Source: Neocallimastix lanati (nom. inval.)
Lineage: Eukaryota > Neocallimastigomycota > Neocallimastigomycetes > Neocallimastigales > Neocallimastigaceae
DNA: 64,000 nucleotides
Reading direction: 5' to 3'
NCBI GenBank assembly: GCA_016946835.1
Contig: JACVTC010000226.1
Location: 1-64,000 of the forward strand
The stretch's first letter is position 1; the number at the start of each line of letters is the position of its first letter. Under the pieces are notes generated by a model. The model had not been told where the DNA came from. It made no database searches and worked only from the letters and a program-made list of their open reading frames with translations. This document shows, piece by piece, positions 3,691 to 36,335 of the stretch. Position numbers and translations under genes: made by a program.

Positions 3691-4548
3691 TGTAAGAAAC
3701 TTTAATAAAAAAAAATTTTTTTATAAGAGTTTATTTTTTATATTGATTGAGTTTATTATTAAAAAAAAAATAAAAAAAAATACTTATATTTAAATAGACG
3801 AAAATTAGAAAAAGTAGAAGGCTCATATAAAAATAAGTTTTTAAAACACAAAATTTTATTAAAAAAAAAATTTTAAACTTTAAATTTTAGGTTATTATTA
3901 TTTTTAATATTTATCTTTATTAATATTTTTAATAATAATAACTCTTGATTTCTGAAAAAACAGAAATCAATCGTTATTTTATACTTATTTATTTATTAAT
4001 TAATCTTTTTTTATATTTATTTATTATTATTATTTTTTTTTTATCATGTGTCTGTTTAATTAATTAATTATTATTATTTATTTTTCATGTGTTTATTTAA
4101 TTAATAATTATTTAATATAATATATTAATTATTTCTTAATTAAGCTATTGTTTGCTAGTCAGCTGTTGTATCTTCAGGAAAAGACTAGCAGAAAAACCTG
4201 AAGATTTTCTTAATTGTATTAAATTAGAACGAATTATTTCAAAGAAATTTATTATTTAATTTAATTTAATTATTATTTAATATTATTGTGAAAATAATTT
4301 TAGAATATTAAATATTAATTTTAATTTATTTATTATTTAATATTATTGTGGAAATTATTTAGAAGAATTTTAAATTTTAAACATAATTGTATTTGTGAAA
4401 ATTCTATTATTATTTTTTAATATTTAATATTATTATACTTACGTATTTTAATTTTTTAATTAATAAAATTTATATTTAGATTAATTTGTAATTAATAAAA
4501 TTTATATTTAGACTAAGAAATATAGAAAATATTTCTATATTTCTTACA
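3691..4548 (-). repeat. 3' LTR of gypsy D
   Basis: On the plus strand it starts TGTAAGAAAC and ends TTTCTTACA, giving inverted TGTAAG/CTTACA termini. Its first 447 bp match 9568-10013. It contains the hairpin TTGATTTCTG/CAGAAATCAA (3945-3970), extended by a further AATAAC/GTTATT stem, and on the minus strand upstream of that the U3 pseudoknot-like element at 4153-4205. Confidence 0.8.
4153..4205 (-). promoter_or_regulatory. U3 pseudoknot-like element, copy 1
   Basis: Stem 1 is ATCTTCAGG (4170-4178) with CCTGAAGAT (4197-4205). The 18-nt loop AAAAGACTAGCAGAAAAA (4179-4196) contains GACTAGCA, which is fully complementary to TGCTAGTC at 4153-4160, nine bases beyond stem 1. This gives an H-type pseudoknot pattern in the sense (minus) orientation. 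Pairing is seen by eye; function is not known. Confidence 0.6.
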
Positions 4549-4584
4549 TTGCTCCCTTTAGAAAAGATTTTTGTGAAAATCTCT

Positions 4585-5963
4585 TTAATTATTTATGTTA
4601 TTATTAACTTCTATTAATTCCTTCTTTCTTTCCGTATAGGGTTCCAATTGGGAGATATGAAATATCGGGTGGAGATGCATGTTTTCTGGTAATTCCAACC
4701 GATAATTCATTCTTCCCCGTTCTTCTAAAATTCTAAAAGGGCCAAGATATTGATTTGACAGCTTTTTAGCAGGCTCATTTGTGAAATAATAACGTTTGAG
4801 CCAGACTTTATCGTTAACCTTAAGAATTGGTCCAGAAGATTTTTTATTGTCTCCGAATCTTTTAAAATCTTCCTTAGCCTTAATTAAGTGTTTCTTTAAT
4901 GAGTCAAAGTGGGCAGCCCAGTCACGAGTAAGAACGGAAGCATTATCTTTTAAGAGGATTGGAGGAGAATCAATGTTGCAGCATGGGTTGAATCCATAAT
5001 TGGCGTAAAAGGGGGATTTACCAATTGATTTATGTAAGGAATTATTGTATGCGATTTCACACAAGGGAAGATAAAAACACCAGTCTGTTTGGGCAGAGGA
5101 GCAATAACAACGTAGATATTGTTCGATCACTGAGTTTGCTCGTTCGATTTGTCCATTACTCTGCTGATGGTGAGCTGTCGCAAGGCTCGGTTTAACTCCT
5201 AAGGAGTGGCATAAGGAAGTCCAAAATTCGGATGAAAACTGGGATCCATGATCCGAAACAATAACTTTTGGGAACCCGTGATAGCGAAAAACGTTAGCAA
5301 GAAGAAGTCTTGCAGTTAATTCAGCTGAAGGTACATCTGAACAAGGGATCAGATAAATCATCTTGGTAAGGTGATCCGAGACAACCATGATACACGTACA
5401 ATTTTGTGAATTGGGGAGAGAAACAATGAAATCCACACCGATGATTTCCCAAGGTTTGCTGGGAACTGGTAATGGTTGGATTTTCCCGTACGGCTTATGG
5501 CGGCGTATTTTGTTCTTCCCACAAACTTCACAAGAGTATACATAATTTTGAACGTCATTACGCATATTTGGCCACCAATAATAGCGCTTTAATTTTTCAA
5601 GAGTCTTATTGACACCTTGGTGACCATTAACTGGTGTGTCGTGGAACGACCTTAAGATGTTAGGTTTTAATGGAAAAGGTACAATGATCTTTTTCTGAAA
5701 GTGAAGGATTCCTTCAACTATGCTAAAAACAGAAGATTTTAATTGGGAGTCTTTATTTTTTAGTTTTGAGAAAATGTCTCTACAATATTTGTCTTTTTTC
5801 TGAGCTTCTATCAATTTGTTAATATTTTCTATAGTAGTACAACAGAAATCTTCTTCTTTTAAAAGAGTTGTCTTGATAGATTTTTTACCATCTTGCAATT
5901 CCTTGTAGTCTGGTCTCCTGGAAAGTGCATCTGGTCTGCTGTTTTTTTCTCCAGATCTATATG
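4585..5963 (-). pseudogene. Gypsy D Pol, integrase part (3' half)
   Basis: The frame begins at the right edge with the end of RNase H/linker (YRSGEKNSRPDALSRRPDY) and runs to a TAA at 4585. It encodes the integrase zinc finger (HDTPVNGHQG...CEVCGKNK), the catalytic core (VDFIVSLP, SDHGSQF, HHQQSNGQIERAN) and a C-terminal GPFRIL...HISQLEPY segment, without a chromodomain. The reading frame has no start codon of its own: removal of the solo LTR at 5964-6735 and one copy of its CATAT duplication joins it in frame to the RNase H part on the other side. Integrase residues look intact, but the parent ORF is broken. Confidence 0.9.
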
Positions 5964-6735
5964 TATAAAGTTTTGGAAAAAAAATAGATTATAAATCAAC
6001 ACTTCAATAATAACACTAAAACACAAAATAATAGTTTTAAAGAACAAGTTTTATTAATTTTTTTAAATATTAAAATCTTTATTTATTTTAAAGTGTTATT
6101 AACAAGAAATCGTTAATAACAATTACATCGATTAAAATACATGAAATTTGATAACTATTTATATTTTTATCTTATTACATTTATAATATATAATTCCTAT
6201 TGAATTATATTATCTAGCTATTTATTTAAAAACAATACTAACCTAAACTAATAATAAATAATTAACTATTACTAAATAAAGAGAATTATAATTAATAACT
6301 AAAATAAATATAATCAATTCTAATTGAGTTCATTTATTATTTATTTATTATTTAAATATTATTAGTAAATTTATTATATATTTTCTATTTAAAAATAATA
6401 TAAAAGTTGTCATAATTATTTAATATAAATTTAGCATAAAATGCCGTAAGTTTCAACATGACTAATTGCATAGTTTCATGTTGTTAATTTATCTTGTGAA
6501 AAACCTTAACTCTTATTATTTAAATTAAATTACATAAAAAGAAATGATTTTCAAATACTAGTTTCACAAGAGAAATTTTTAATTTATTAGTATGATTGGG
6601 AAAAAATCGAAATTATGTTAAAAATATTTTCAATAATTTTATACACGTGATTTCAAATAAATTTATTTTAATTTTACTTAAATTTATGATTAAATTTAAT
6701 TAAAATTATTTAAAGATATTAATAATATCTTTACA
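5964..6735 (-). repeat. Solo LTR inserted in gypsy D pol
   Basis: On the minus strand it runs from TGTAAAG (at 6735) to CTTTATA (at 5964). It is flanked by the 5-bp direct repeat ATATG (plus strand) at 5959-5963 and 6736-6740. Excision of the LTR plus one repeat restores a continuous Pol frame. Its first bases resemble the LTR of element C (TGTAAAGAT), so it probably comes from a related family; the internal region was lost by LTR-LTR recombination. No ORF. Confidence 0.85.
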
Positions 6736-9412
6736 ATATGATATTCTGTAATCAAATTTTGAGAGAAATAAACCCCATCTTATTTGTCTTTGGTTTAAGT
6801 GATGAGGTTTTTTGAAATAGAGTAAGTTTTTATGATCTGTTATAATTTGAACTGGTAGCTTTGAACCTTCTCCACACTTCTAATGCGGTTATGACAGCTA
6901 AAAGCTCTTTATCATATATAGTATAATTAGATTCAGTTAGGGACATGGATCTAGAATAAAATGCTACTGGGTGAAGCTGATTATCTTCTTCACTTTTTTG
7001 AGACAAGATACATCCAACGGCGAAGTCACTTGCATCTGTTTCTACAATGAATTCTTTATCTGGGTCAGGATGAATAAGGAGTTTGTTACTTTTGAAGGAT
7101 TCTTTTAACCTAGTAAATGCTTCATCGGCTTTCTCATTCCATATGTACTGATTATCCTTTTTTAATAATTTTCTGAGTGGCTCCATGATTTGAGCAAAGT
7201 CTTTTATAAACCTCCTATAGAAATTGCATAAGCCAAGAAAGCTTTGAAGTTCCTTGAGATTTTTTGGAACGGGCCACTCTAGAATAGATTTCAGCTTATC
7301 TTCATTCATAATAAGTCCTTTAGAAGAGATTCTGAATCCTAAGAAATTTGTTTCCTGGACATGGAAGTTGCACTTTTCTAATTTTGCGTATAATCCATTT
7401 TCTATTAGCCTACTCAATATGAGGGAAACATGACTTGTATGTTCTTTACTACTTTTAGAATAAATAATAATATCATCCAAGTAGATTTGAACAAATCTTC
7501 CAATAACATCAGAGAATATATCCTGTACAAAGTGTTGGAAGACTGAAGGTGCATTTCTTAGCCCGAACGGCATTACTAAGTATTCGTAATGTCCTATGGG
7601 AGTCCTAAACGCCGTCAAATATTCATGTCCTTCTCGTATTCTTATTAAATTGTATGCTGATCTGAGATCCAGACGTGTAAAAATTACCGCACCCTGGAAG
7701 GATTCAATAAGATCATTTATCCTTGGTATAGGGTAACTATTTCTAATAGTAATTGAATTCAACTTGCGATAGTCAACACAAAGTCTTAACGTCCCATCAT
7801 GTTTTCTTACAAAGAGAACTGGAGCACCAGCGGGTGAATTCGACTTCCGAATAAATCCCTTATTTAAATTTTCATTTATATATTCCTTTAAGGCTTTCAT
7901 TTTTGTGATGGATAAAGAATATATTAGACCGTAGTATAGTTGACTTCCTGGGATTAAATCTATAGACATGTCATAATTTCTGTGGGGTGGCAATTTGTCG
8001 GCTTCTTTTTTCTCAAATGTTTTCTTTAAATTGAAGTAATATTTTTCAACAATTTCTTTTTTTGTTTCAATGCTTTGTTCTTTAGTACGTTCAATAGGGA
8101 TTTCTTGTAAAGCAGCACAAAGATCTACATCATTTTCTTCATTAAGAAGATTATCGTAGACAATTGTATCGTCAGGGACCATAGAAGCAGTGAAATCTTT
8201 AGAATGGAAGATAAATTTATTCCCTTTTGCTGAATCACAATGTTTTGCACAGTACTTTTCTAAGAAGTAAATAGTATTTTTTTCAAAATTTATATAGGGC
8301 TTATATTTGTTAAGCCAATCTCTTCCTAGAATTCCAGTAATTCCTTGGAGTTGTAAACTGGCAATATTAAATTCAAATGTTTCATGGTGATCCATAAAGC
8401 TGAGTTTAAGAGGTTTAGTCACATACTTAATATTCATAGATTTTCCATTTGGTAGTTGAATGTTAACAGGAGATGGTAGACCAGAATACGGAATCTTATT
8501 TATTTTAACGAAATTTTGACAAATGAAACTTCTGGAAGAGCCAGAATCTATTAATAATTTAATTTTAATTTTTTCATTGTTGACTACTGATAAAAAAGTG
8601 GAGGTCATCATATTTTTCTTGTTAGGAGTGAAATTTGCTGATAATAGATTATCAATTTTACTTTTCTTATATTTCTGATAATTTTTATTTCTATATTCAC
8701 TCCTTTTGGATTCGGAGAATTTCCTTTTGTGATAGGTATCCTTAGGACTTTTATCTTTAGACTTTAGGTTGGTTTCCAAATAACATTTCTTATCCAATGT
8801 GATAATCAAATTAGTAGCTTCAAATAAGTTAGAAGGCCGTTCGGCTTTATCAAATTCTTTTTGAACTTCTTCTAGGAGTCCTCTTCTTATTAAGTCAATG
8901 TAGACTCCATCATTCCATCCAATTCTTTTGGCAAGCCTTCTAAATTCTATAGTATAAAAGGCTGCCTTTCCAAGGGTCCTTTGTCTTAAATTTAATAGTT
9001 TTTCAATAAGAGAATACCTCTGTTCTTTGCTATCACCAAAATTGTTTATTAGTAATTCTTTAAATTTCTCATATCCAAGTGTTTGAAGAATCCCTTCTTC
9101 CTTAAGAGATAAACCCCATTTTTTTGAAGGACCTTGTAATTTGTGAATTAAAAAAGAACATTTACTTTCTTCAGCAGTAAAAGAATTTGGGTGGTCATGG
9201 AAAAAGAGCTCACATTGACTAATAATTTCTATCATATTCAAGTTATTTTCATTTTCTTTTTCTTGTGTTAGTATGCCATTGGGTGAGAAGAAGGTTGGAA
9301 TATACTCCGTAATAGTTGAAATTAACTTTGATGTTTCATCCGGCTTATTTTTTGAAATGGAAATGTCATTATTTCCATTGTTTTCTGAAGTACCTGCAAT
9401 ATTAATATTCAT
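6736..9412 (-). pseudogene. Gypsy D Gag-protease-RT-RNase H (5' part)
   Basis: The ATG at 9410-9412 opens an 860-codon frame that stops at 6830. The N-terminal third is Gag-like (WGLSL, FRRLAKRIGW) and has a Lys-rich tail but no CCHC zinc knuckle. Protease LLIDSGSSRSF lies near 8530-8555 and is followed by a YCAKHC motif (near 8250). RT has LCVDYRKLN, LDLRSAYNLIR, VMPFGLRNAPSVFQ and catalytic YLDD near 7471-7482. RNase H begins at VETDASDFAVG. Near 6870 the frame is lost (ALEVWRR...), and the expected ITDHKNLLYF continues in another frame to 6741, which suggests a small deletion there. It is therefore a broken single-ORF Gag-Pol. Confidence 0.9.
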
Positions 9413-9466
9413 TATGAAATAAAAATAAAGTGAATGTATAGAGTATAATATATTTTTTATAAAAAT

Positions 9467-9497
<31 letters not shown>

Positions 9498-9567
9498 ATT
9501 TTATTTTATTTTTAACTATAATTATTATTATATATAAAATTATTATATATAAAGGAAGAGTTATTAT
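9413..9567 (-). other. 5' leader of gypsy D
   Basis: The short stretch between the 5' LTR and the gag ATG holds a 27-base T run on the plus strand (about 9471-9497). I see no convincing tRNA primer-binding site starting TGG at the LTR border. Confidence 0.5.
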
Positions 9568-10013
9568 TGTAAGAAACTCTAATAAAAAGAAATTTTTTTA
9601 TAAGAGTTTATTTTTTATATTGATTGAGTTTATTATTAAAAAAAAAATAAAGAAAAATACTTATATTTAAATAGACGAAAATTAGAAAAAGTAGAAGACT
9701 CATATAAAAATAAGTTTTTAAAACACAAAATTTTATTAAAAAAAAATTTTTAAACTTTAAATTTTAGGTTATTATTATTTTTAATATTTATCTTTATTAA
9801 TATTTTTAATAATAATAACTCTTGATTTCTGAAAAAATAGAAATCAATCGTTATTTTATACTTTTTTATTTATTAATTAATCTTATTTTATATTTATTTA
9901 TTATTATTATTTTTTTTTTATCATGTGTCTGTTTAATTAATTAATTATTATTATTTATTTTTCATGTGTTTATTTAATTAATAATTATTTAATATAATAT
10001 ATTAATTATTTCT
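9568..10013 (-). repeat. 5' LTR of gypsy D, R-U5 part only
   Basis: This is about 98% identical by eye to 3691-4137, with the same TGTAAGAAAC terminus and the same hairpin near 9820-9855. Homology stops abruptly after ATTATTTCTT at 10013, so the U3 part of this LTR is missing or replaced. Confidence 0.8.
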
Positions 10014-10494
10014 TCAAATGTTAATTGAAGTTTTCCGATTGGAAAATATCGGTTTTTATTCAATTAACATATGATCAATTTTATTAATAATTGATCATTA
10101 AACTTTTTAGGTTTTTCTCCCAAATCTTTTCCTAAAAAGTTATTCATTAAGATTTGGACTTTACTATAAATAATTCTTGATTTTCAAAATAAAGAAAATC
10201 AAGAGTTATTATTATAAGAATATAATTACAATAATAAACAAAATAAATTTTTAATTATTTTAGAAATAACAAAATCTTAATAAAAATTATTTTTTAATAA
10301 AAATTATTTTAATAAAAATAAAAATTTTATGAAATATTGGTATAATTAAATCTCTTATAATAAACTCCTCCATCTATTTTGTGTGTTAAGTATTTTCTTT
10401 TATTTTTGTTTTATTCCTTGATTAATATTAATTATTAGTATTAATTGTAGAAAAGGGTTAAATTTAATTAAGTTTAAATTTAATTCTTTACATT
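10014..10494 (+). repeat. Partial LTR, plus orientation, abutting gypsy D
   Basis: This fragment contains a U3 pseudoknot-like element (10101-10157), a TATA-like ACTATAAATAA (about 10163), a hairpin TTCTTGATTTTC/GAAAATCAAGA just after it, and an end CTTTACA at 10494. It is the right-hand part of an LTR in plus orientation, fused head to head with the D 5' LTR. Confidence 0.6.
10101..10157 (+). promoter_or_regulatory. U3 pseudoknot-like element, copy 2
   Basis: Stem 1 is AACTTTTTAGG (10101-10111) with CCTAAAAAGTT (10131-10141), 11 perfect pairs. The 19-nt loop contains CCAAATCTT (10120-10128), complementary to AAGATTTGG at 10149-10157. Both stems differ in sequence from copies 1 and 3 while remaining fully paired. 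Confidence 0.6.
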
Positions 10495-10499
10495 GTGTA

Positions 10500-11493
10500 A
10501 GAAATCATAATTATTCAATAATGAATAATTAATATTTCTTATAATTAATGAAAAATAATTAATAATTTATAATTATTTATAAAATAATAATTATTTTTAA
10601 AAAAATATTTATTTAAATAATAATTAATATATTCATTGATTTTAACTTATAAATTTATTTAATAGTTATATTTTCATATATTGATCTAAATTTATTTACA
10701 TATTATAATTTATACATTTATATAAATAATATAAAATTTATTTACATATTATTATTATTCATTTAAATAGAATTTTTACAAAAAATAATGTAAATTTGTA
10801 TTTAATATTTTACCATAAAAATATTAGTTATTTTAATTAAAATGAATTATGTATTTTATAATGTATTATAAACTATAAATGTATCTAATCTATTATATTA
10901 TTTAATCTTTATTTTTTAAATGAAAAAAAAAAAATCTTTTTTTTTATTAATTCCTATCCTATCAATATTTAATATTTTATAATTAATTAGAAAATCGGTA
11001 ATTAATGTTTTTCCTAACAAATAGGTTTTCTTTAATTATACGATGATCAATATGATTAGAATATTAATCGAAAAACTATTTAGGTTTTTCTTCTAATCTT
11101 TTCCTAAATAGATTTTTTGTTAAGATTAGAAAATAAATTTATTTAACCGATTAATTTTTTAAAAAATATAAATAAGACTCTTGAATTCTCTTTGAGAAAT
11201 CAAGAGTTATTATTTTAAGAAAATATAATAAATAATAACAAATAAAATAAATTTTATATTTATATATCAAAAAAAATATTATTAGTCATAAAAGCTTTTT
11301 TTAAATATTCCCAACTACTAATCTACCTACTGAGTTATTGTTTATTATATTTACTTATAATAAACTCCACATAATTAAGTATAATTTTTATTTTTTTTTA
11401 ATTTTATTTTCTCAATTTTAATATTATGTAAAAATAATATTAAAGTTGTAGATAATAGTTATATTAATTAATTTTAGTTTTAGTATAGCTATT
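10500..11493 (+). repeat. LTR, plus orientation
   Basis: It starts TGTAAGAAATC and ends near GCTATTACA. It carries a U3 pseudoknot-like element (11076-11131), a TATA-like AATATAAATAAG (about 11168) and the hairpin CTCTTGAATTCTC/GAGAAATCAAGAG immediately after. No matching target duplication was found, so it may be one LTR of a lost element. No coding content. Confidence 0.55.
11076..11131 (+). promoter_or_regulatory. U3 pseudoknot-like element, copy 3
   Basis: Stem 1 is CTATTTAGG (11076-11084) with CCTAAATAG (11103-11111). The loop TTTTTCTTCTAATCTTTT contains TTCTAATCTT (11091-11100), complementary over 10 bases to AAGATTAGAA at 11122-11131. Confidence 0.6.
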
Positions 11494-11503
11494 ACATCTT
11501 GGT

Positions 11504-11984
11504 GTAAGAAATTACTTATAAAATTAATTATAAATAATTTCTTAACTACAAATTAACATTAATTATTACTAATTAACTTTAATTTGAGAAAATAAAATTA
11601 AATATAATTAAATAAATATAAAATAATATAAATAAATAATTATACTTAACTTAAATATAAAATAGAGTTTATTATAGAAAGTTTATAATAAACAATAACA
11701 CAAAAGGAATAAAAGACACAAATATTTATAAAATATGTTTTATTAAAAGGGTTTTGTTTTATTAATTAATTATTTTATTTGAATTATTATTTATTATAAA
11801 AATTCTAAAATAATAACTTTTGATTTCTCGAAGAGAACTCAAGAGAATCAAATATATATAAATTAATAATTAAATATTATTGGTTAAAATAAATACAATA
11901 ATTTAATAATTTAATGTATTAAATTAATGTATTAAATAAGAAAGATAGATAAATTTTATAATAAATTTATCTTAGTTTCTTACA
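11504..11984 (-). repeat. LTR-like repeat, minus orientation
   Basis: It is bounded by TGTAAGAAAT and TTTCTTACA on the plus strand. It holds the TATA-side hairpin in reverse (AATAACTTTTGATTTCTC...GAGAACTCAAGAG, near 11808-11842) with an AT-only TATA-like stretch to its right. No target duplication is evident. Confidence 0.45.
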
Positions 11985-12068
11985 CTATAAGATAACTCCG
12001 ATTTTTGATAATTCCAATGAATAATAAATCTTGTTAAATTAATTAAACCAAATTTAAATTCTACTTTA

Positions 12069-12439
12069 ATTTACGAGGTGTCACTAAATACCTTGTATTT
12101 CCTATTAAATACTCTTAATAATAATAAAATAAAAACTATTATTAAATTTTATTATTAATTTAAAATAATAGTTAAAAATTAAAATAAAATAATTATAATA
12201 GTTTTTTTTAAAGAATATATTAATGATTAATAAAATGTATTAGAATAAAAGTATAAAAAGAAGAATAAATTTCTTTCTTTTTAATACTTGGAACAAATAA
12301 TTTTAATTTTAAATTCAAATAAAGAATATTTTAATATTTAATTTTTTTTTCTTGTTTCCAAATTTATTTTTATAGCTATGTGTTAATATTTATTTTTTTT
12401 TGTTCTGAATATCTTAGTGTTTCAACCCCAGCCCGTATC
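12069..12439. repeat. Truncated LTR of family E
   Basis: From GGTGTCACTAAATACC to CCCGTATCA this is the same repeat as 44816-45937 but lacks the interior with the 54-bp repeat array. The TGATACG start is degraded here. No ORF. Confidence 0.65.
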
Positions 12440-25610: not shown

Positions 25611-25667
25611 TACAATACAACAAAATACAAATTTATGTAATAAAAATTTTCGAAATGACACACCCCC
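25611..25667 (-). repeat. Right TIR of the MULE
   Basis: Inverted partner of 21449-21507, followed directly by the duplicated target CATTTCTCA. Confidence 0.85.
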
Positions 25668-25676
25668 CATTTCTCA

Positions 25677-26620
25677 ATCATGCATCTCACAATGTGGCTT
25701 ATTTTTGTTTGTGGGTTGTTTTTTTAATAATCAAATAAATTATAATCAAATAAATAGTAATTAAATAAATAATAAATATTCTTTTTTTTTATAGATATAA
25801 TTTATTAATATTCAATTATAAAAATAATATTTTATAATTTTTTTTTAATTAGAATATATTATTATTTATTTTGAAATAGTTATATTTAATTCTAAAAATA
25901 TATTATTATTTCTTTTAAAATAATAATTATTTATATATTTATTTATGATTGTATATATAATATCTTAAAATGTATGGCTTTATTTAAAAAATACTATACG
26001 CCACATTATAAATGTACGATCCCCCTCAATTTTCTTAGAACATAATCCTAAAACTATTTCAGTTATAGAATATTCTATTTTTTTAAACTTTGGAATATTC
26101 TAAAATGAATATTTATTTAACATCATTAACAAAATATTCCATTGAAAATATATTAAAATTATCAAATAATTAAAAAAATATTATTATTATTATTATTATT
26201 AAAAAATATTATAAAAAAAAAAATTATTATTATTATTATTTACTTTATTATTATTATTATAGTTATAAGTTTTAAATAAAAAAAAAAAAAAAAAGTATAA
26301 ATATTAAATGTTTTTTCATAAAAATTAAAAGCTTCGAAAAATTAAACAAATATTATTTTAATAAAAAAAAAAAAATTTATTTTTAAAATAAAAGTTAATT
26401 ATAAAATAAAATAAAATAATAATAATAATAATAATAAAAAAACGATATTTATATTTTGTTATAAAAAAAAACAATATTTATATTTTATTATAAAAAAAAT
26501 AATAATATATATATATAATTAAAAAGTTAAACAAAGCAAAGTAATCTTTTATTACTAAAAACTATTACAATTAATCTTTTTCAAAAAAAAAAAATTTATA
26601 TTATTTTATAAAATCTGAAA
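25677..26620. other. Intergenic region upstream of the ankyrin gene
   Basis: AT-rich with A runs, ATT/AAT tracts and TATATATATA about 110 bp before the ATG, which may serve as the core promoter; the sequence is too AT-rich to assign a TATA box. No other feature. Confidence 0.5.
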
Positions 26621-28036
26621 ATGACTAAGACCGAATTTGAAACTTTCTCTGTAACTCTTTTAAATCAATTAAAAAATGAAAATAAGGATTCCCTTCGAAC
26701 CATTGAAAATAATAATAAATTAATTGAAAATTACTTAAATGGTCAAGACCTTGGCTATCTTAAGAACTTTGTTAATGATTTCAATGATACTGTAATTGAG
26801 GCTCAAGTAAAGAAATACAAATTATTTGAAAAGGTGCTAAATCAGAAATTATTTTATAATGTAATTGCTGAATTCAGAAAAAGTGACGTTTTAATTAGAG
26901 CTTGTAAGGAAGTTAATAAGAAGGCAGTAGAATGGCTTCTTACAATGAATATTGATCCTAATGTTCAAGATGAAAATGGAATGACTGCTTTAATGCACGC
27001 TGCGGAACACGCTAGTACAGATTTTGCGGTCAGTAAATTACTTAATGAAAAATCAGCAAATATGGTGGATAATAATGGAAATAATGTTCTTATCCATGCT
27101 ACTAACGCCCCAGATATTTTAAAGAAGTTACTTAAATCTAAGATTAACATGAACCGTTTAAATAATGATGGAGAAGATGCTCTTCTCTACAGTTGTAGAT
27201 ATGACAAAATCAGAGCCTATGAAATCTTAATTAAGGAAAAGAATGCTAACGTTAATTGTTCAAACTGTGTTGGTATGACTCCAGCTATGTATTTGGTTGA
27301 AAACGCTAGATACAGAGAAGTTGAATCATTAATAAAGAGTGGGAAAGTTGATCCAAATTATTGTAATAAGTTTGGTAATACTTTTGTTTCAGTTTATATT
27401 AAGAAGTATTATCAACAATATATTGGAAATATTGGTGAGACCAGTTATACTTCAAAGTATAATTATGTTGTTACTAAAAATTATATCCTCACTTTCAGAG
27501 TTTTAATTGATATGGGTTGTGACTTCAATAAGCCAATTGATGTGGATGGCAATACTCCAATTGTTGCCTTATTGATGATGAAAGATTATGTATCAGCTAA
27601 ATATCTTATTGATAAATGTAAAAATCTTGATCTTTCTATTAAAAATAAATATGGAATCAGTGGTTCCTCCTTTAGAGGATTAATTGATGAAAAAGTATTT
27701 GATGCTATGGAATATAATAAAATTAGAAATAGTTCTTCTATTTCATGTAAAGCTTTAGTCAATGCCATCGGTAAACACAAAACCTATGAATATGATAATA
27801 AGTATGCTCCAGAAAATATTGAAAGTGGTGACATCGTCGTTTCAAAGTCAATAATAAGTTCTTATCCTATTATACCAGAAGTTGCTAAAGTTGCTGAACA
27901 ATGGGCTTTAGAAGTTTTATTCCCTAATGCTGGTGCTGTTATTACTCTTGGTAGTAATAGTTATAATAAAGAAGATCCAAATTCATTTAGTTCTCTTATG
28001 ACTAAAAAATTAACCGGTGGTTTAGGTACTTACTAA
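26621..28036 (+). CDS. Ankyrin-repeat protein, 471 aa
   Basis: ATG at 26621, TAA at 28034, no intron visible. The N-terminal 90 residues are helical and charged without a recognised domain. From about residue 90 there are ankyrin repeats: VLIRACKE..AVEWLLTMNIDPNVQDENGMTALMHAAEHA, then FAVSKLLNEKSANMVDNNGNNVLIHATNA, DGEDALLYSCRYD, GMTPAMYLVENAR, and later VLIDMGCDFNKPIDVDGNTPIVALLM. The last 100 residues are not repeats. Ankyrin repeats bind partner proteins; the partner here cannot be told. No signal peptide or membrane segment. Codon use is richer in G+C than the flanks and the ORF is undamaged, so this is the one clear host-type gene in the window. Such genes are numerous in anaerobic gut fungi (general knowledge). 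Confidence 0.9.
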   Translation: MTKTEFETFSVTLLNQLKNENKDSLRTIENNNKLIENYLNGQDLGYLKNFVNDFNDTVIEAQVKKYKLFEKVLNQKLFYNVIAEFRKSDVLIRACKEVNKKAVEWLLTMNIDPNVQDENGMTALMHAAEHASTDFAVSKLLNEKSANMVDNNGNNVLIHATNAPDILKKLLKSKINMNRLNNDGEDALLYSCRYDKIRAYEILIKEKNANVNCSNCVGMTPAMYLVENARYREVESLIKSGKVDPNYCNKFGNTFVSVYIKKYYQQYIGNIGETSYTSKYNYVVTKNYILTFRVLIDMGCDFNKPIDVDGNTPIVALLMMKDYVSAKYLIDKCKNLDLSIKNKYGISGSSFRGLIDEKVFDAMEYNKIRNSSSISCKALVNAIGKHKTYEYDNKYAPENIESGDIVVSKSIISSYPIIPEVAKVAEQWALEVLFPNAGAVITLGSNSYNKEDPNSFSSLMTKKLTGGLGTY

Positions 28037-28079
28037 GAGAATTAATAATTCATTGGTTTATCGTTTATAACAATTAAAT

Positions 28080-28107
28080 AAAAATCTATTACTTTTATTA
28101 GATTTTT
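28080..28107 (+). terminator. 3' hairpin after the ankyrin gene
   Basis: AAAAATCTA (28080-28088) and TAGATTTTT (28099-28107) form a 9-bp stem with a 10-nt loop 44 bases after the stop, followed by more T. AATAAA overlaps its left arm and could act as the polyadenylation signal. By eye only. Confidence 0.45.
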
Positions 28108-28480
28108 TTGTGTTATATATTTTTTCATCCTTGTTATTTTAATTAAAAATATATTAAAAGTTGTATAGAAAAAAAAATAAATGAAAGAAATAAAAATAAT
28201 AAAATAAAAAAAAAAAAATAATAATAACACACAAAAAAAAAAAAAAAATCATAAATAAAAAAAAATACAATTAAAAAAATAAAATAAAATAAAAAATTAA
28301 CTGTTTTAACGAAAAAACTAAAATAAAATAAAATTAAAAATAAAAGAAATAAAATAAAAAAAATAAATACAATAAAAAAAAATTAAAAAAAAAAAATAAA
28401 ATAAAAAAAAAAATAAATAAAATAAAATAAAAAATTAACAGTTTTAACAATTTTAAATTTGTGTTAAATTTTATATTTTT
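28108..28480. other. Homopolymer-rich spacer
   Basis: Dominated by A runs with AAATAAAAT repeats; no gene. The motif AAATTAACAGTTTTAAC-like occurs twice (about 28296 and 28435). Confidence 0.5.
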
Positions 28481-28929
28481 TTTTCTTTTTTTTTTTTTTT
28501 TTTTTTTTTTTAGACAGGGAAGAGAATACACTTCCAGTACTTTATTAATTTTATTTTAAAAAATACATGTAGGTGAAAAGTACATTTGAAATTAAAGATA
28601 AAAAAATTTAAAAAATAAAAAAAAAAATAAAAAAGATCGAAAATACTATGTATTTTGGCAAGTTGTACTAAACGGAAAAATTTCCTTTTCTAACAAATAA
28701 AAAAAAAAAAAAAAATAAAACATAGAAGTAACATCTTTTTAAAATAGATTGGGGTAGTCTCCACTAAACGTTCAGGGAGCATAAATTATTTAGTATATAA
28801 AAGGTTTAATTCCTTATTTAATCTCAGTGATAAAAAAGTAATCGTCACCTGCAGGACTCGAACCTGCGCTCCCAAAGGGAAATGGCTTAGCAGGCCACCG
28901 CGTTAACCACTCCGCCAAAGTGACTACAG
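28481..28929 (-). mobile_element. tRNA-Ser SINE, copy 1
   Basis: Read on the minus strand: 5-base leader TGTAG, tRNA-Ser (28843-28924), about 60 nt of body, then from the TTTAGTGG region onward the same sequence as the LINE 3' end at 61567-61830, ending in a long poly(A) (T run at 28481-28511). The tail holds the shared block AGACAGGGAAGAGAATACA (28512 on, plus strand). One LINE tail only. Confidence 0.8.
28843..28924 (-). tRNA. tRNA-Ser(GCU), copy 1
   Basis: 82 nt, cloverleaf complete: acceptor GTCACTT/AGGTGAC with discriminator G, anticodon loop CTGCTAA (GCU), variable arm CCC-TTT-GGG, T arm GCAGG-TTCGAGT-CCTGC. The A box TGGCGGAGTGG and B box GGTTCGAGTCC fit Pol III consensus. A T6 run lies 8 nt after the 3' end. 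No CCA encoded. Identical to copies 2 and 3. Confidence 0.9.
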
Positions 28930-29597
28930 TTATTTTAATAATACAAGATGAAAAGAAAAATAATGATATTTTAAAATTATTATTAAATTATATTAATTAT
29001 ATAAAGTTTGTAAAATATATATTATTATAAAATTAATTATGTAAAAATGGTGAATTATATTAATTATAAATCATATAAAATAATATTATTATAGTATAAA
29101 ATTTAATTATTATAATATAAACTTTTATATTAATGTTTATATAAAATATAATAATTATGATTTAATATAGAGATAATAATTATAAAAAAATATATATATA
29201 AAAATATTATTATAAAAAAAAAAAAAAAAGTTTATGTAAAAAATTATTGATATATGTTAATTAGTAATAGTTGATTTAATATAAGAAAAATGTTTTAATT
29301 AGTTAAGATAGTAGTTTAGTTATTAGTTTTAATAAAATCAGTTGTTTAAGTAATTAATTGTAGAATATTATAATTAAATTATAATTATTAATAGTTAATT
29401 AATATGATAAAAATAAAATAAAATAAAATAAAATAAAATAAAAATAAAATATTACAAAACAAATATCCTAAAATAAAAATTTTAAATAACTAAATAAAAT
29501 AATTAATATTATTATTAGAATATATAATTTAATACTATTCCCCAGTGTAGCGCCCAAAACTATTGTAAATACGAATATTTAAAAATATATCGTATCA
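28930..29597 (+). repeat. Degraded 5' LTR of gag-only element I
   Basis: The last 90 bp (ATTAGAATATATAATTTAATACTATTCCCC... to ATATCGTATCA at 29597) match the end of the 3' LTR at 31569-32038, including the conserved ATTAGAATATAT block and CGTATCA terminus. The left part is AT-rich and its TGATACG start is not recognisable. Confidence 0.55.
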
Positions 29598-29603
29598 TAT
29601 TTT

Positions 29604-29620
29604 TGGTGGAGAATCCGGGC
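29604..29620 (+). promoter_or_regulatory. Candidate primer-binding site of element I
   Basis: TGGTGGAGAATCCGGGC lies 6 bases after the LTR end CGTATCA. It begins TGG, complementary to a tRNA CCA end, and has a plausible acceptor/T-stem composition. The tRNA was not identified. Confidence 0.5.
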
Positions 29621-29833
29621 GTGACAATAGCAAAATAATATGAAAATAATATTAATAAAATAATACATCTATATAATAAATATATAATAAATATTATTTA
29701 GTATATATATAAAAAGAATTTAATTAGTTTAAATTAGTTACTAATATTTATAATAGTAATAGTTATAATAATATTAAATTGAATTAGAAAATTGTAATAA
29801 AAAAAATATATAAGTATAAATAAAATTTTAAAG

Positions 29834-31264
29834 ATGAATGTTTTTAAGATATTAAGTACGTTACCATTATTAGAAAATTATAATAATGATATCAATGAAT
29901 GGATAGAAGAATTAACAGAGTCATTTGAATTATGGGATATAAAAGAACAAGAAAGAAGATTTATTTTATGTAAAGAATGTGTAAATAAAGAAATTAGGTA
30001 TGTTCTTGATGAATTAAAGGAAGAAAAAAATCAGGTTCCTAGCTTAAAAGAAATAAAAATAGCCTTAGAAGAATATCTAGAGATAACACCAAGCGTAAAA
30101 TATTGGAACTTAATTAATTTGAAAATTAATTCAAATGAATCAATTAGTAATTTTAATTATAAATATTTAAGAAAATATAATGATATTGATAATAATATAA
30201 AGAAATTAATTACTGTTAATAATTATGTTAATTCAATTAAGTCTAGAATATATCCTTGTTTAAGAATATTAGAAGAAGAAATCGAAGATATAAACGAAGC
30301 TCTCAAATATGCAGAAAAAGTTGAAAGAATTGAAAAGAAATTAAATTTAAATTTAAATAATATTTATAAGAATAATAAACAAAAATGGAATAATAATAAT
30401 TTCAAAATGAATAAATTAGTTAGTAATATAAACAATAAGAATAATAAAATTATGTGCTTTAGATGTTATGAGTTAGGTCATAAAGCTGTTAATTGTAGAC
30501 ACACATTTAAAGAATTAGATGAATTAGAAAGAACTGGAATTTTGGAAATAAATAAAAGAAGAAATTTTATACCTGGAAACCACAATAATTATAATTTTAA
30601 ATTTAATTCATATGATGGAAATAAAAGCTATAATAATTATTATCGTAGAAATTATAATTTAAATAGTAATATTGCTGAAAGTCATCATAATATGATTAGT
30701 TTTAGTAAAAAGCATAATGGAAATAAAGAAATTTATAGAAATAATTATAATTTAAATAATAATTTTGGTAATAATAATTCTAATAATTTAAATAATTATC
30801 TAAATAAAAGTAATTATGATTTAAATAAAAATTTTAGTACCAATAACAATAACAGTAGTTTAAATGAGAATATGAATACAAAAAAAAATAGAATATACAA
30901 TAATCATGGTATAAATTATAATATGCAAAGAAATAAAGATGTAAATATTGGAAATGAAATTAATTTCAACAATAATTTAAATAACAATTGTGTAGAAAAT
31001 ACGTTTAATTCAAATATAGATAATACTCAAGATAATATAATTGGAAATAATATAAATAAAAACAATAATGGATATAATAGAAATATAAATTCAGTAGGAA
31101 ATAATAGTGGTTTTAATAATAACAATACTAATAACAATGATAATTATACAAATAACGAAAATAAAAATGTTAATAATATTAACGAAATGAATTATAATAA
31201 AAACAAAAATAATAATAACAATAATAATAACAATAATAAAAATAATAAAAATAATAGAAAATAA
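29834..31264 (+). CDS. Gag of non-autonomous gypsy element I, 476 aa
   Basis: ATG at 29834; TAA at 31262. The N-terminal 180 residues form a retrotransposon Gag-like helical region (INEWIEELTESFELW, ISNFNYKYLRKYNDI, LKYAEKVERIEKK). A CCHC zinc knuckle CFRCYELGHKAVNC sits around residue 208 and would bind the element RNA. The last 240 residues are dominated by Asn with scattered Tyr, Lys and Gly, and may be disordered. No protease or pol follows: after the stop there are A runs, then a polypurine tract and the 3' LTR. The ORF is intact, so the element may supply its own capsid-like protein and borrow RT and integrase from another gypsy copy. The Asn codons are mostly AAT, so repeat expansion may have lengthened the tail. 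Confidence 0.8.
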   Translation: MNVFKILSTLPLLENYNNDINEWIEELTESFELWDIKEQERRFILCKECVNKEIRYVLDELKEEKNQVPSLKEIKIALEEYLEITPSVKYWNLINLKINSNESISNFNYKYLRKYNDIDNNIKKLITVNNYVNSIKSRIYPCLRILEEEIEDINEALKYAEKVERIEKKLNLNLNNIYKNNKQKWNNNNFKMNKLVSNINNKNNKIMCFRCYELGHKAVNCRHTFKELDELERTGILEINKRRNFIPGNHNNYNFKFNSYDGNKSYNNYYRRNYNLNSNIAESHHNMISFSKKHNGNKEIYRNNYNLNNNFGNNNSNNLNNYLNKSNYDLNKNFSTNNNNSSLNENMNTKKNRIYNNHGINYNMQRNKDVNIGNEINFNNNLNNNCVENTFNSNIDNTQDNIIGNNINKNNNGYNRNINSVGNNSGFNNNNTNNNDNYTNNENKNVNNINEMNYNKNKNNNNNNNNNNKNNKNNRK

Positions 31265-31475
31265 AAAAAAAAATAAATAAATAATTTAATTATGATGAAG
31301 TATTAATAAATAAATAATTATATATATATAACAATAATTTAAATTAAATTAATTCGAAATTTCAAGATTTCGAATTTCAAAAATTAAAATAATCATTAAT
31401 TCAAAAATTTAATTTTTTTTTTAAAAAAAAAAAAAAAAAAAAATTTAATAAATCTAATAATAAATTTTAATAAAC

Positions 31476-31513
<38 letters not shown>

Positions 31514-31568
31514 ATTATATTGTTATAGAGACTTCAGGGGACGAAGTCTAATTTAAGTGGGGGCGTCT
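31265..31568 (+). other. 3' untranslated part and polypurine tract of element I
   Basis: Two long A runs (31424-31442 and 31482-31510), then GACTTCAGGGGACGAAGTC, an imperfect hairpin, and AAGTGGGGGCGTC just before the LTR start at 31569. The G-rich tract resembles those of A (2881) and F (14604). Confidence 0.65.
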
Positions 31569-32038
31569 TGATACGTAACCACTATAAATATGGTATTTAT
31601 GTAGATTCTTTAGGTTAAAGAAATACTTAAATATTATTGGTCAGCAATAATTTTATAACAATATATAATTTTATAATAATAATTATTAAACGGAGAATTC
31701 TTTTATTTATAAGTATATACTTATGATAAATTAATTCACATAAATAGCTATTTTTATATTTTATTTTAGTATAGTTAAAAAGAGATATTATATATATTTG
31801 AGATAATTAATTATAATTATAATATTTATATAAGAGAGTAATAATAATAATTGATGTAATAATTAATAATTAATAATAAATAAAGAGTACATTAAAAAGA
31901 TATATTTATTACTTTATTTTGTATTATTGTATGTGTTATTTCTATTTAATATTAGAATATATTATTTTGTCATAATTCCTTATTGTCATTGCCCATAAAT
32001 AAATATTAATTTATATACATAAATAAAATATCGTATCA
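31569..32038 (+). repeat. 3' LTR of element I
   Basis: 470 bp from TGATACGTAACC to ATATCGTATCA, inverted TGATACG/CGTATCA termini, with TATAAATATGG near the start and the ATTAGAATATATTATTTTGTC block near the end. Confidence 0.75.
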
Positions 32039-32043
32039 TTAAT

Positions 32044-33041
32044 TTAATAATTTAATTAAAAAATTATAATTAAATTATTAATCATTAATATTAGCTCTAA
32101 CTGCTAATATTAAAGGTTTAGAAAAGAATCATACTTACCTATGGTTCTTTCTAATTATCGAGTTTATTATAACGAATTATAATAGACGAAACACTGAAAT
32201 TGATAAGGAAAAGTTTTAATTATAAAATTTGTTTTATTAAAATAATTTGTTTTATTATTTATTAAAAATTTTAAATGTTAAAACTATTTTTATTATTATT
32301 ATATTATAATTGTTATAATAATAACTCTTGATTTCTCAAAGAGAACTCAAGAGCCTTATTTATACTTTTTTGTCAAAATAAGGTTAAACATCAAAAGGAG
32401 TTCTAATCTTAACAAATCTCTTATCTAGGAAAAGACTAGAAGAAAAACCTAGATAAGTTTTTTGATCGATATTCTATCCATATCGATCATCGCGTTAATT
32501 AAGTAAAACCGATTACTTTTAAGAAGTAATTGGAAAAACCTTAATTAACCGATTACTTAATCTAATATAATGATCGAAAATAAAAGAATAAAATAATGAA
32601 AATGATTTCGATCATAAAATTTAAAATTTAATCTATTTAGTTCTATTTTATAGAACTTTACATAAAAAATATAAAACAATACATTAATAATAAAATACAT
32701 GATTAATACAATACAGAATACATGATAGAATACAGAATACATTATAAAATACAGAATAGTGTTTTAGTTTATGATTTAATAAGTGAGAGAAAACTAAAAC
32801 TAATAAATTTAATAATTAAGTGAATAATTAAATAAATTTAATATTATTTTAAATGTATAAAAATTATTTAATTAAATAAATTTTTAATATTAAACTAAAT
32901 AAAATTTTAATATATAATTAAATAAATTATTAATTATAATTAATTGTATAAATGAAATATGAGTTAAATAAAAGTTATATTAATTATAACCTAACTAAGA
33001 AAATATAATTATTTTGTTAAAAATAATTATAGATTCTTACA
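32044..33041 (-). repeat. Solo LTR K1, target duplication TTAAT
   Basis: On the plus strand from TTAATAATTTAATT to ATTCTTACA, flanked by TTAAT at 32039-32043 and 33042-33046. It has the reversed TATA-side hairpin (32325-32353), a reversed TATAAATAAGG (about 32354-32365) and a U3 pseudoknot-like element (32401-32457). It is the same family as 35373-36335. No internal region, so it is a solo LTR. Confidence 0.75.
32401..32457 (-). promoter_or_regulatory. U3 pseudoknot-like element, copy 4
   Basis: Stem 1 CTTATCTAGG (32420-32429) with CCTAGATAAG (32448-32457); loop AAAAGACTAGAAGAAAAA. Loop AAGACTAGAA faces TTCTAATCTT (32401-32410) with one mismatch in DNA that becomes a G-U pair in the sense (minus) RNA. 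Confidence 0.6.
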
Positions 33042-34301
33042 TTAATTTGTAAGAAATAATAATTATTTACTAATAAATAATTAATATTTCTTAGTCTGTT
33101 GAAATTATAACTGAATTGAAATCTCAATTTCAGTTATTCACATTTCAATATACATTTAATTAATAATTAATATAAATTTTTATTTAATATTTAAAGAATT
33201 ATCTTAGGTCTAATAATTCTGAAAATATTAATAAATAAGATTTATATTAATAATTTCAATTATTTACATATGACGTCACATGTATTTATTTATATTATGT
33301 TTATATATATGTTTATATCATATATATTAATTACTATTTTTAATTATTCAAATTAATTATACAAATTAAATTTATTTAATTATATTAAATATTTTAAACA
33401 TATCGATATTGTTATTATTTTAATAGTTTATTAATATTCATTTTACTATATTATTATTATCTTATAATTAAATACTATTATTATGTAACTTACAAAGTAT
33501 AAAAGGAAGATGTAAAAATCTATCTTTTATGTTCTTTGTAAGGTTATTGTATTTACAATAATTATATACTAATAATTCAATAAATAAATATTTTCATAAA
33601 TCCTTCAAAGAAATTATTATTTAAAATATTCTTAGATATTAAGTGTTTAAATAACTTAACTATTTATCTTATATTATTTTTATATTATTATTAATTAATT
33701 ATTGTTGGATTATTAATATATAATTCAACATATTAACCTAGTAACGTTATTAAGCATAAAACTATTTTATATCTTAATTTTAACATAGTCTTTATAATTA
33801 TTGATAATAATTATAAATTTATTTAAATTATAATTAATTCATACATTAAGATATTATTATCAAATTTATTATAATTGTAATTATTCATACACTTAAATAA
33901 TATTATAAAATTTATTTAAATAATTATTATATGTACACTTATTAATATTATTAATTTTATTTAGTTGTTCATTTAATTATCAAGTTAATGTAAACATTAG
34001 TTTTATTTATTTTTTACATTGTACATTTAAAAGAACAATTAATAAGTTTCTGTATTTTTTATAATTCTGTATTCTAGTTTAAAGATAGTTTTATGTTAAT
34101 AAGTTTAGATTAGATTTTAAAAATTATATTTAGAAAATAATTTAGATCATTCCGGTTATTATTGATTTTTCCTTTTATTTGATGATCTAAATTAAAATTT
34201 AGGAAATCGATATATTAAGGTTTTATCCAAATATAAAATAATATATTTGGTTTTACTTAATATATACGATGATCGATATGAATAGAATATCGATCAAAAA
34301 A

Positions 34302-34358
34302 CTTATCTAGTTTTTTCTTCTAATCTTTTTCTAGATAAGATATTTTTTAAGATTAGAA
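34302..34358 (+). promoter_or_regulatory. U3 pseudoknot-like element, copy 5
   Basis: Stem 1 CTTATCTAG (34302-34310) with CTAGATAAG (34331-34339); loop contains TTCTAATCTT (34318-34327), fully complementary to AAGATTAGAA (34349-34358). Confidence 0.6.
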
Positions 34359-34393
34359 AACCCTTTTTATTTAACCTTATTTCCATTAAAAAA

Positions 34394-34433
34394 TATAAAT
34401 AAGGCTCTTGATTTCCCTTCAAGAAATCAAGAG
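34394..34433 (+). promoter_or_regulatory. LTR TATA-like box with adjacent hairpin
   Basis: TATAAATAA at 34394-34402 is followed at once by CTCTTGATTTC (34405-34415) and its exact complement GAAATCAAGAG (34423-34433) with a 7-nt loop. The same arrangement occurs in the other TGTAAG-type LTRs of this window. It may mark the transcription start and the 5' end of R. Confidence 0.55.
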
Positions 34434-34706
34434 TTATTATTATAAAAATATAGTTATAATAATAGCAATTTTATATTTTAAACTTTAATAAATTAATAAA
34501 ACATTTTATTCAAAAACATATTTTTTAAACCAAATTTATCCAAATATTTCTTCTTTTACTTTTTGTGTTGTTATTATAATTAATTTTATAATAAACTCTT
34601 TTTTAGGTAAAATTTTTATTTTTATTTTATTTCTCAACTTAATGAATTAGTCATTAAGTTGAAGTTAACAATCATATTTAGTAATAGAACTTAGTATGAT
34701 TATTAC

Positions 34707-35372
34707 AGAATGGTACGATACCACCATTAAAATAAGATTTAGGTAGGAAATTTAGGTTAGAAATATTATATAAATATTATTGGTTATAATAATTAAAATA
34801 ATTTATATATAGTTATTCAAATAATTATTTTTAAAAGCATGGTTAATTCATTTATCATAATTAAAATAGATAAATTATATTATTAATGATTCTATTATTA
34901 TGATAATAAATTAATTCATCATTATTATTAATAAGTTTTATTTTATATTTTAAATATTATTTTGAGAAATTATATAGTTTTAGGAATTATAAATATTGAT
35001 AATTATATTTTATTTAGGAAATATATTTTAAATATTGATAGTTATATATTATTTAATTATGAAAATGTATTATTAAATAAACTTATTAGGAAATTAATAG
35101 TTGAAGAAATATGTTTAATAAAAATATAATATTAAATAATTATTTTAACAATTATATAAAATTAAGAGAATGTAATAATAAATATTTATATATGTAAAGA
35201 TAAAATAATAAAAATAAATAAAGAATAAAAAATTATTATAAAACATTATTATTATAAATTATTTTCTTATATTTATTAGAATATATTATCGTGTCATAAT
35301 TCCTTAGAGAAACGACCAACTAAATTAATAACTCGATATGGAATATTTTAAATGTTCTGTATCACTTGAAGG
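34707..35372 (+). other. Remnant between LTR H and LTR K2
   Basis: AT-rich, without ORF. It contains ATTAGAATATATTATCGTGTCATAATTCC near 35276, the block seen near the end of the element I LTRs, so a degraded LTR of that family is likely here. Confidence 0.4.
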
Positions 35373-36335
35373 TGTAATAATTTAATTAAAAAATTATAAT
35401 TAAATTATTAATCATTAATATTAGCTCTAACTGCTAATATTAAAGGTTTAGAAAAGAATCATACTTACCTATGGTTCTTTCTAATTATCGAGTTTATTAT
35501 AACGAATTATAATAGACGAAACACTAGAATTGATAAAGAAAAGTTTTAATTATAAAATTTGTTTTATTAATTATTAGAAACTTTAAATGTTAAAACTATT
35601 ATTATTATTATTATTATATTATAATTGTTATAATAATAACTCTTGATTTCTCAAAGAGAACTCAAGAGCCTTATTTATACTTTTTTGTCAAAATAAGGTT
35701 AAAATCAAAAGGGGTTCTAATCTTAACAAATCTCTTATCTAGGAAAAGACTAGAAGAAAAACCTAGATAAGTTTTTGATCGATATTCTATCCATATCGAT
35801 CATCGCATTAATTAAGTAAAACCGATTACTTTTAAGAAATAATTGGAAAAACCTTAATTAACCGATTACTTAATCTAATATAATGATCGAAAATAAAAGA
35901 ATAAAATAATGAAAATGATTTCGATCATAAAATTTAAAATTTAATCTATTTAGTTCTATTTTATAGAACTTTACATAAAAAATATAAAACAATACATTAA
36001 TAATAAAATACATGATTAATAAAATACAGAATACATGATAAAATACAGAATAGTGTTTTAGTTTATGATTTAATACGTAAGAGAAAACTAAAACTAATAA
36101 ATTTAATAATTAAGTGAATAATTAAATAAATTTAATATTATTTTAAATGTATAAAAATTATTTAATTAAATAAATTTTTAATATTAAACTAAATAAATTT
36201 TTAATATGTAATTAAATAAATTATTAATTATAATTAAGTGTATAAATGAAATATGAGTTAAATAAAAGTTATATTAATTATAACTTAACTAAGAGAATAT
36301 AATTATTTTGTTGAAAATAATTATATTTTCTTACA
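35373..36335 (-). repeat. LTR K2, close copy of K1
   Basis: From TGTAATAATTTAATT to TTTCTTACA, 963 bp, collinear with 32044-33041 and about 97% identical by eye. It carries the same hairpin (35638-35666) and pseudoknot-like element. No matching flanking duplication was found. Confidence 0.75.
35715..35771 (-). promoter_or_regulatory. U3 pseudoknot-like element, copy 6
   Basis: Same as copy 4: stem 1 CTTATCTAGG (35734-35743) with CCTAGATAAG (35762-35771), loop partner TTCTAATCTT at 35715-35724. Confidence 0.6.

Follow-up and report, generated by a model that had tools for sequence, protein, structure and literature searches.

The first 64,000 nt of contig JACVTC010000226.1 of the anaerobic gut fungus Neocallimastix lanati (contig positions 1–64,000, hereafter the window) contain six copies of an H-type pseudoknot, and five of the six have a hairpin resembling an expression and nuclear retention element (ENE) 30–36 nt upstream on the same strand. 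From sequence and by analogy with known ENEs, ENE-like hairpin and U-tract pseudoknot may be read together as a 3′-terminal RNA-stability module of self-primed, Tf1/Tf2-like Ty3/gypsy retrotransposons, a reading to which we give a probability of roughly 0.55. The usual order within the module is ENE hairpin, short hairpin and H-type pseudoknot, and the pair probably protects the element RNA from decay. Related copies were sought in the genome (199 Mb, 762 contigs).

Six pseudoknots in the window

A preliminary description of this DNA had reported six long terminal repeat (LTR) copies of one architecture, with a first stem (S1) of 9–11 bp, a loop of 18–20 nt, a second helix (S2) of 8–10 bp and a gap of 7–10 nt between S1′ and S2′. 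This architecture was recovered in all six copies (Table 1), as was one G·U pair in S2 of the sense RNA in copies 4 and 6. One point had to be amended: copies 4 and 6 carry identical knots, in flanking stretches that are 88% identical, so that the six copies amount to five distinct versions. The loop, described as A-rich on one strand, is U-rich in the sense orientation, which is the plus strand for copies 2, 3 and 5 and the minus strand for copies 1, 4 and 6.

The results also agreed with the claim that the arrangement is hard to explain by chance: for each of the six copies, none of 4,000 dinucleotide shuffles matched the observed score. When the window was searched with a model of 14 versions, copy 1 included, exactly these six copies were found at E < 1e-10; the next match had an E value of 0.12, and the matches at E 0.12 and E 1.1 overlap ENE-like hairpins. 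A strict Watson–Crick scan of the window, which can pass only four of the real knots because the G·U pair excludes copies 4 and 6, gave 6 + 6 matches on the two strands compared to shuffle means of 1.6 and 1.1 (10 shuffles); copy 3 was matched on one strand only, and the remaining matches were low-complexity AT sequence. In one scan, a high score also went to an alternative in which S1′ pairs further downstream. Chance palindromes at high AT content are ruled out by the shuffles, the window scan and the tree-aware compensatory counts given below, and the H-type structure is near certain.

Compensatory changes in both helices

Two genomic alignments, both fitted to S1 and not to S2, were analysed. 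The first comprised 70 matches, 49 of them distinct, from 64 sources; its paired cells reached 94.3% compared to 83.4% after shuffling, and its double-change cells numbered 102 compared to 27.1. For the second, 12 of the 64 sources (mostly hand-picked loop variants) were dropped and 21 loci of a non-autonomous family were added, giving 76 matches (46 distinct; L145 yielded none). The corresponding values were 93.9% against 79.0% and 146 against 38.6, and the covariation score was 0.455, compared to 0.180 for shuffled and at most 0.089 for slid controls. That both helices change while pairing is kept, as had been proposed from the six copies, was borne out by the larger genome alignment, in which 10 of 10 S1 pairs and 4 of 10 S2 pairs changed on both sides.

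A tree-aware count was made over 42 distinct rows with a tree built on the flanks without the knot, omitting three L099 rows, L059, L090, L092 and rows with short flanks. The result showed 23 same-branch compensatory double changes over 20 pairs, 19 in S1 and 4 in S2, with at least one in 10 pairs and at least two in six. Among 1,593 non-structural column pairs that served as a control, the mean was 0.026 and one pair reached 2. At the S1 pair of columns 12–36, which is a nearly constant G-C in LTR copies, six rows from the non-autonomous family have A-U instead. Two interleaved helices are each backed by compensatory change, very strongly for S1 and clearly but more thinly for S2, and their spacing suggests that both can coexist in one molecule.

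Strand and RNA-level evidence

The 70 alignment rows represent 67 physical knots. All 45 knots with a primer anchor (the self-primer described below) within 320 nt have it downstream on the same strand and are in the sense orientation. Three others lack an anchor within that distance, the flank is too short in 19, and in none was an anchor present on the opposite strand only. Core-pair wobbles in distinct rows comprised 16 G·U and 7 A·C, or about 6 and 3 without hand-picked loci, which is not significant; this count excludes the outermost S2 position, where many families have an extra loop base. L096–L100, L107 and L108 had been chosen for a one-position loop difference, a choice that favours C-to-T and hence G·U. 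Four G·U wobbles are common to at least two physical copies, namely those of the copy-4/6 family (7 copies), of L102/L096 (2) and of the L129 type (21 of 21), and a second S1 wobble in 6 of those 21, whereas no A·C in the core is shared. This four-to-zero count is suggestive only; a fifth shared wobble, in L097/L108, comes from hand-picked loci. The minimum free energy (MFE) was lower for the sense than for the antisense strand in all five window modules, and z scores of the sense strand against shuffles ranged from −2.8 to −7.6.

Loop U-tracts

While the helices vary, the U-tracts of the loops change less than any other part of the knot. Among 40 loci around primer anchors, some picked with a knot known nearby and others with no knot pattern listed there, the letters of UUUUUC and UUUU were unchanged in 18 knots except for two one-base gaps. 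The G-C pairs bordering the U-tracts (columns 12–36 and 29–58) are nearly constant, and the closing pair 13–35 is unpaired in 12 of 46 rows. With its U-tracts held between G-C pairs, the knot resembles an ENE in which sequence from downstream provides the upper helix. The knot itself lacks the internal loop within one hairpin that an ENE has, as its upper helix pairs with downstream sequence, and it would work like an ENE rather than being one.

An ENE-like hairpin beside the knot

The ENE scanner required a lower stem, a U-tract, a C/G-closed upper stem, a second U-tract and the lower-stem partner. It found six places on the two strands of the window compared to a mean of 0.8 in 20 shuffled windows, and two places when no mismatch was allowed. 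Genome-wide, 48 of the 68 distinct modules with enough flank passed. In these modules, as in five of the six window copies, opposed U-tracts lie in an internal loop with G-C pairs bordering the U's, and the presence of such a neighbour is a pointer to function. Judged by eye, the upper stems vary with pairing kept (CCTA/TAGG, CCGAT/ATCGG, CCAT/ATGG, CCCAAT/ATTGGG, CCAA/TTGG and others), a variation seen through a scanner that itself demands pairing and U's.

The 20 modules that failed the scanner fall into three groups. In nine, an ENE can still be recognised by eye, although it is defective or has a short stem (L004, L022, L052, L059, L075, L076, L092, L098 and L123), two are truncated or rearranged (L090 and L099), and nine belong to two ENE-less families, four to the ATCTTCAGG family, which includes copy 1, and five to the TCTTTCAGG family. 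In four copies of these ENE-less families, up to 700 nt of upstream sequence (480 nt for L007) and the 400 nt downstream were scanned, and no ENE was found. In L090 (G000:C14:144995-145220), the pseudoknot fragment adjoins TTAGGG-type telomeric repeats within the contig.

Host elements

The LTRs are genuine: seven related LTR pairs elsewhere in the genome align over 898–1,029 bp at 96.4–99.9% identity, their ends are mostly TG..CA (the 5′ LTR of L020 has an altered first base), and 5-bp target duplications flank the three pairs inspected. The element with copy 1 in its 3′ LTR encodes Ty3_capsid, protease, reverse transcriptase, RNase H, integrase and SH3_Tf2-1 domains, and for this element a Ty3/gypsy pol with a Tf2-like integrase end was found. 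The primer-binding site (PBS) ATAATAACTCTT directly behind the 5′ LTR complements AAGAGTTATTAT in all four families in which the LTR end was reached, with one mismatch in L020, and AAGAGTTATTAT stands 34–36 nt past TATAAA in four of the LTRs measured. The self-primer sits in a hairpin of the CTCTTGATTTC..GAAATCAAGAG type just past TATA, and its 15-base core occurs 964 + 938 times in the genome compared to 1 + 1 for the reversed core. The PBS is thus complementary to the RNA 5′ end as placed by the predicted start site, and by their sequence the elements are self-primed, Tf1/Tf2-like Ty3/gypsy retrotransposons.

Because the complementarity between PBS and LTR lies past TATA, R is expected to start just after TATA and the LTR-borne module to lie wholly in U3. 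This agrees with the earlier placement of the knot upstream of a TATA-like box, near the 3′ end of the predicted element RNA. The candidate poly(A) signal AATAAACTC occurs downstream in all six window copies and at nine of ten loci checked. In the U3 of the copy-3 family, a pure A-run at about 429–456 of the L020 LTR apparently varies in length among copies.

A further element at 51138-57968 has repeats 99% identical (749 bp) around an uninterrupted gag-pol frame of 1,630 aa. No ENE or U-tract knot was found in it by the window scans, implying that some gypsy lineages of this genome are without the module.

The module outside the LTR

The assignment to U3 holds for the LTR-borne families; it does not hold throughout, since in one non-autonomous family the module is internal. 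Some primer-anchored LTRs form a group with a short U3 that lacks the module. A complete copy of the non-autonomous element, L129, is 3.1 kb long, with LTRs of 481 bp that are 100% identical and a target duplication GAATG; its internal DNA of about 2.1 kb contains no ATG-started open reading frame (ORF) of at least 71 aa. There, an ENE with a 13-position lower stem leads directly into a pseudoknot whose S1 and S2 sequences are new and whose end lies about 120 nt before the 3′ LTR. A knot end before the LTR was also seen in L073 and L079, and L077 belongs to the same element as L129. Twenty further copies, taken from 62, kept S1 and S2, with one mismatch each in L136 and L145; the position relative to the LTR was established for L129, L073 and L079. 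By eye, members of this short-LTR family (L129, L073, L077–L080, L084 and L085) have the polypurine tract, primer and PBS in common with the autonomous elements. As far as the sequences show placement, the common denominator across families is a place in the 3′ part of the RNA.

Genome-wide occurrence

The loop frame GGTTTTTCN{6,12}TTTTCC had 1,371 genome matches compared to 125 for the reversed pattern, suggesting that perhaps one tenth of the matches arise by chance. Narrower core patterns gave 768 forward against 4 reversed matches, 52 against 1 and 62 against 0; one further pattern gave 16 against 8, none with a known S2 strand. A core pattern had no match in a collection of viral contigs, which may omit near kin of this genome. 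Against Rfam at gathering thresholds, the window returned three tRNAs and nothing else; a search with 9990-11260 returned a single chance-level match (E 3.3), and searches with four other loci returned none.

Table 1. Positions in the window of the pseudoknots, the neighbouring hairpins and the associated element features
Feature	Copy	Position	Strand	Details
Pseudoknot	1	4153..4205	-	S1 ATCTTCAGG, L1 TTTTTC, S2 TGCTAGTC, L2 TTTT; no ENE found from −700 to +400 nt
Pseudoknot	2	10101..10157	+	S1 AACTTTTTAGG, L1 TTTTTCTC, S2 CCAAATCTT
Pseudoknot	3	11076..11131	+	S1 CTATTTAGG, L1 TTTTTC, S2 TTCTAATCTT
Pseudoknot	4	32401..32457	-	S1 CTTATCTAGG, S2 TTCTAGTCTT, one sense G·U
Pseudoknot	5	34302..34358	+	S1 CTTATCTAG, S2 TTCTAATCTT
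Pseudoknot	6	35715..35771	-	knot identical to copy 4
ENE-like hairpin	2	10018..10070	+	lower stem 12 bp, U-tracts TTTT/TTTTT, upper stem CCGAT/ATCGG
ENE-like hairpin	3	10998..11039	+	U-tracts TTTTT/TTTT, upper stem CCTA/TAGG, one lower-stem mismatch
ENE-like hairpin	4	32494..32549	-	upper stem CCAATTACTT/AAGTAATCGG, one A·C mismatch
ENE-like hairpin	5	34210..34265	+	upper stem CCAAATATA/TATATTTGG
ENE-like hairpin	6	35807..35862	-	upper stem CCAATTATTT/AAGTAATCGG, A·C mismatch and G·U-type pair
GATC-type hairpin between ENE and pseudoknot	2	10072..10097	+	sequence, MFE fold
GATC-type hairpin	3	11045..11069	+	sequence, MFE fold
GATC-type hairpin	4	32466..32490	-	sequence, MFE fold
GATC-type hairpin	5	34271..34295	+	sequence, MFE fold
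GATC-type hairpin	6	35777..35801	-	sequence, MFE fold
gag-pol of element with copy 1 in 3′ LTR	1	4585..9412	-	ORFs 6830-9412 and 4585-5898, other sequence between
TATAAA	2	10165..10170	+	
TATAAA	other copies	11167-11172, 34394-34399; 32359-32364, 35674-35679, 3978-3983	+; -	
Self-primer	2	10199..10212	+	CAAGAGTTATTAT, complementary to PBS behind related 5′ LTRs
Self-primer	other copies	11200-11213, 34427-34440; 32318-32331, 35633-35646, 3935-3948	+; -	
Candidate poly(A) signal	2	10359..10367	+	AATAAACTC

The window also contains three tRNA-Ser(GCT) genes (28843-28924, 38103-38184 and 48226-48307, minus strand). They are spaced at intervals of about 10 kb, their flanks are partly alike, and they perhaps mark a repeat unit or an integration target.

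Relation to known systems

In the Evade LTR retrotransposon, deletion of an ENE located between the ORF and the 3′ LTR lowers RNA stability and mobility (PMC12501189). This placement is much like that in the non-autonomous family here. The same source puts the ENE set of Tycowski 2016 at roughly 200. Transposon ENEs and double-domain ENEs, as described in papers that cite Tycowski 2016, share with the present hairpins the two U-tracts between G-C-flanked stems, the occurrence in LTR retrotransposons and the location in the 3′ part of the RNA; they differ in that here a separate U-tract H-type pseudoknot lies alongside and stands alone in two families. Self-primed elements of the Tf1/Tj1 type likewise have a PBS behind the 5′ LTR that is complementary to the LTR, and the copy-1 element shares their SH3_Tf2-1 integrase domain, whereas the available portion of PMC4600332 mentions no LTR ENE or pseudoknot. 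The alphavirus and potexvirus pseudoknots that involve the poly(A) tail (cited in PMC12846552) are also base-triple knots near an RNA 3′ end; in those the tail takes part, whereas here both helices lie within the element sequence. No ENE–pseudoknot module or comparable U3 pseudoknot was found in the literature as far as the accessible texts extend, though the ENEs of Tycowski 2016 may include this genus, and the pseudoknot partner of the ENE appears to be undescribed.

Possible function and alternatives

If the module stabilizes RNA, the sense RNA would fold both pseudoknot helices, as covariation indicates, and the two U-tracts of the ENE hairpin, between G-C-flanked stems, would clamp the poly(A) tail as a U·A-U triple helix, as ENE anatomy suggests. 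The UUUUU and UUUU of the knot, between conserved G-C pairs, could likewise clamp A residues as a second ENE domain, or could join the base of S2 in a triple helix within the same molecule. Judging from Evade, slower deadenylation or decay would then leave more genomic RNA for reverse transcription. In U3 families the module would be present only at the 3′ end of the element RNA, and in the non-autonomous family in internal noncoding sequence just before the 3′ LTR.

Several observations weigh against an RNA-stability module. The ATCTTCAGG and TCTTTCAGG pseudoknot families have no ENE in reach, and in the copy-4/6 family the ENE contains an A·C mismatch. In the U3 families, roughly 90–400 nt separate the end of the knot from the presumed poly(A) signal downstream of it, a distance that may be long for an ENE. 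The first two S2′ bases are AA in most families and pair with two U's, which would compete with tail binding. The constancy of the U-tracts may be somewhat overstated, since matches to a model built on U-tract copies could miss knots with altered tracts. Support for S2 (4 pairs) is weaker than that for S1, the excess of G·U over A·C is weak evidence biased by the choice of loop variants, and at the outermost S2 position the families with an extra loop base share a C opposite A.

Within the stability reading, the specific proposal that the knot itself clamps poly(A) is tentative. The knot would then be a further A-binding domain resembling an ENE, with a pseudoknot in place of a hairpin forming its upper helix; it would work beside a canonical ENE, or by itself in two families, at the RNA 3′ end of a large retrotransposon lineage. 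Clamping is favoured by copy 1's family, which has no AA at the S2 base and keeps both U-tracts, as expected if A residues from outside are bound.

Two other explanations are each rather unlikely. The knot may serve replication of the genomic RNA in cis, as a signal for packaging, dimerisation or folding for reverse transcription. Reverse transcription in Ty1 involves an RNA pseudoknot, and the 3.1-kb non-autonomous element with identical LTRs has kept the knot, as it would keep a packaging signal. However, the knot lies upstream of the predicted R and away from the primer site, with 100 to 256 nt between the knot start and the anchor, and the near-constant U-tracts and the partner ENE would be left unexplained. 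Equally doubtful is that the knot blocks exonucleases without touching the tail, by a triple helix of its own in which the U-rich L1 occupies the S2 major groove. The triple-helix pseudoknot of telomerase RNA is of H type with a U-rich loop 1, and here a UU/AA step at the S2 base, next to L1 UUUUUC(UC), is present in most versions listed, which favours such a triplex in cis. The family of copy 1, as noted above, does without the AA, and L3 is mixed or U-rich in most versions, being A-rich only in the L129 non-autonomous family; no relation to telomerase RNA is claimed.

A nuclear export or translation element in the 3′ UTR, similar to a constitutive transport element, is unlikely: the knot is structured, sense-strand and 3′-located, and occurs in U3 as well as in noncoding DNA of the internal 3′ region, but it has no Rfam match, Rfam being where likeness to export elements was sought. 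A DNA-level feature such as the cruciform once considered, or a palindromic protein site in U3, is very improbable, for although inverted repeats exist in the DNA and the knot is near TATA in most LTRs examined, the arms vary freely, the strand is fixed in 45 of 45, knot-to-primer spacing varies, one family has the knot outside the LTR and, more weakly, the shared wobbles are G·U in the sense strand.

Significance

ENEs are already known from transposon RNAs, and the pseudoknot partner is the new part as far as literature searches reach. The pseudoknot domain can accompany an ENE or stand without one, and the module is found within LTRs as well as in internal sequence towards the 3′ end. With more than 1,000 pattern matches and diverged families in which pairing is kept, this genome makes it possible to test which parts are important in an RNA that putatively protects the tail, and the knot-only families make a role of the pseudoknot without the ENE directly testable.

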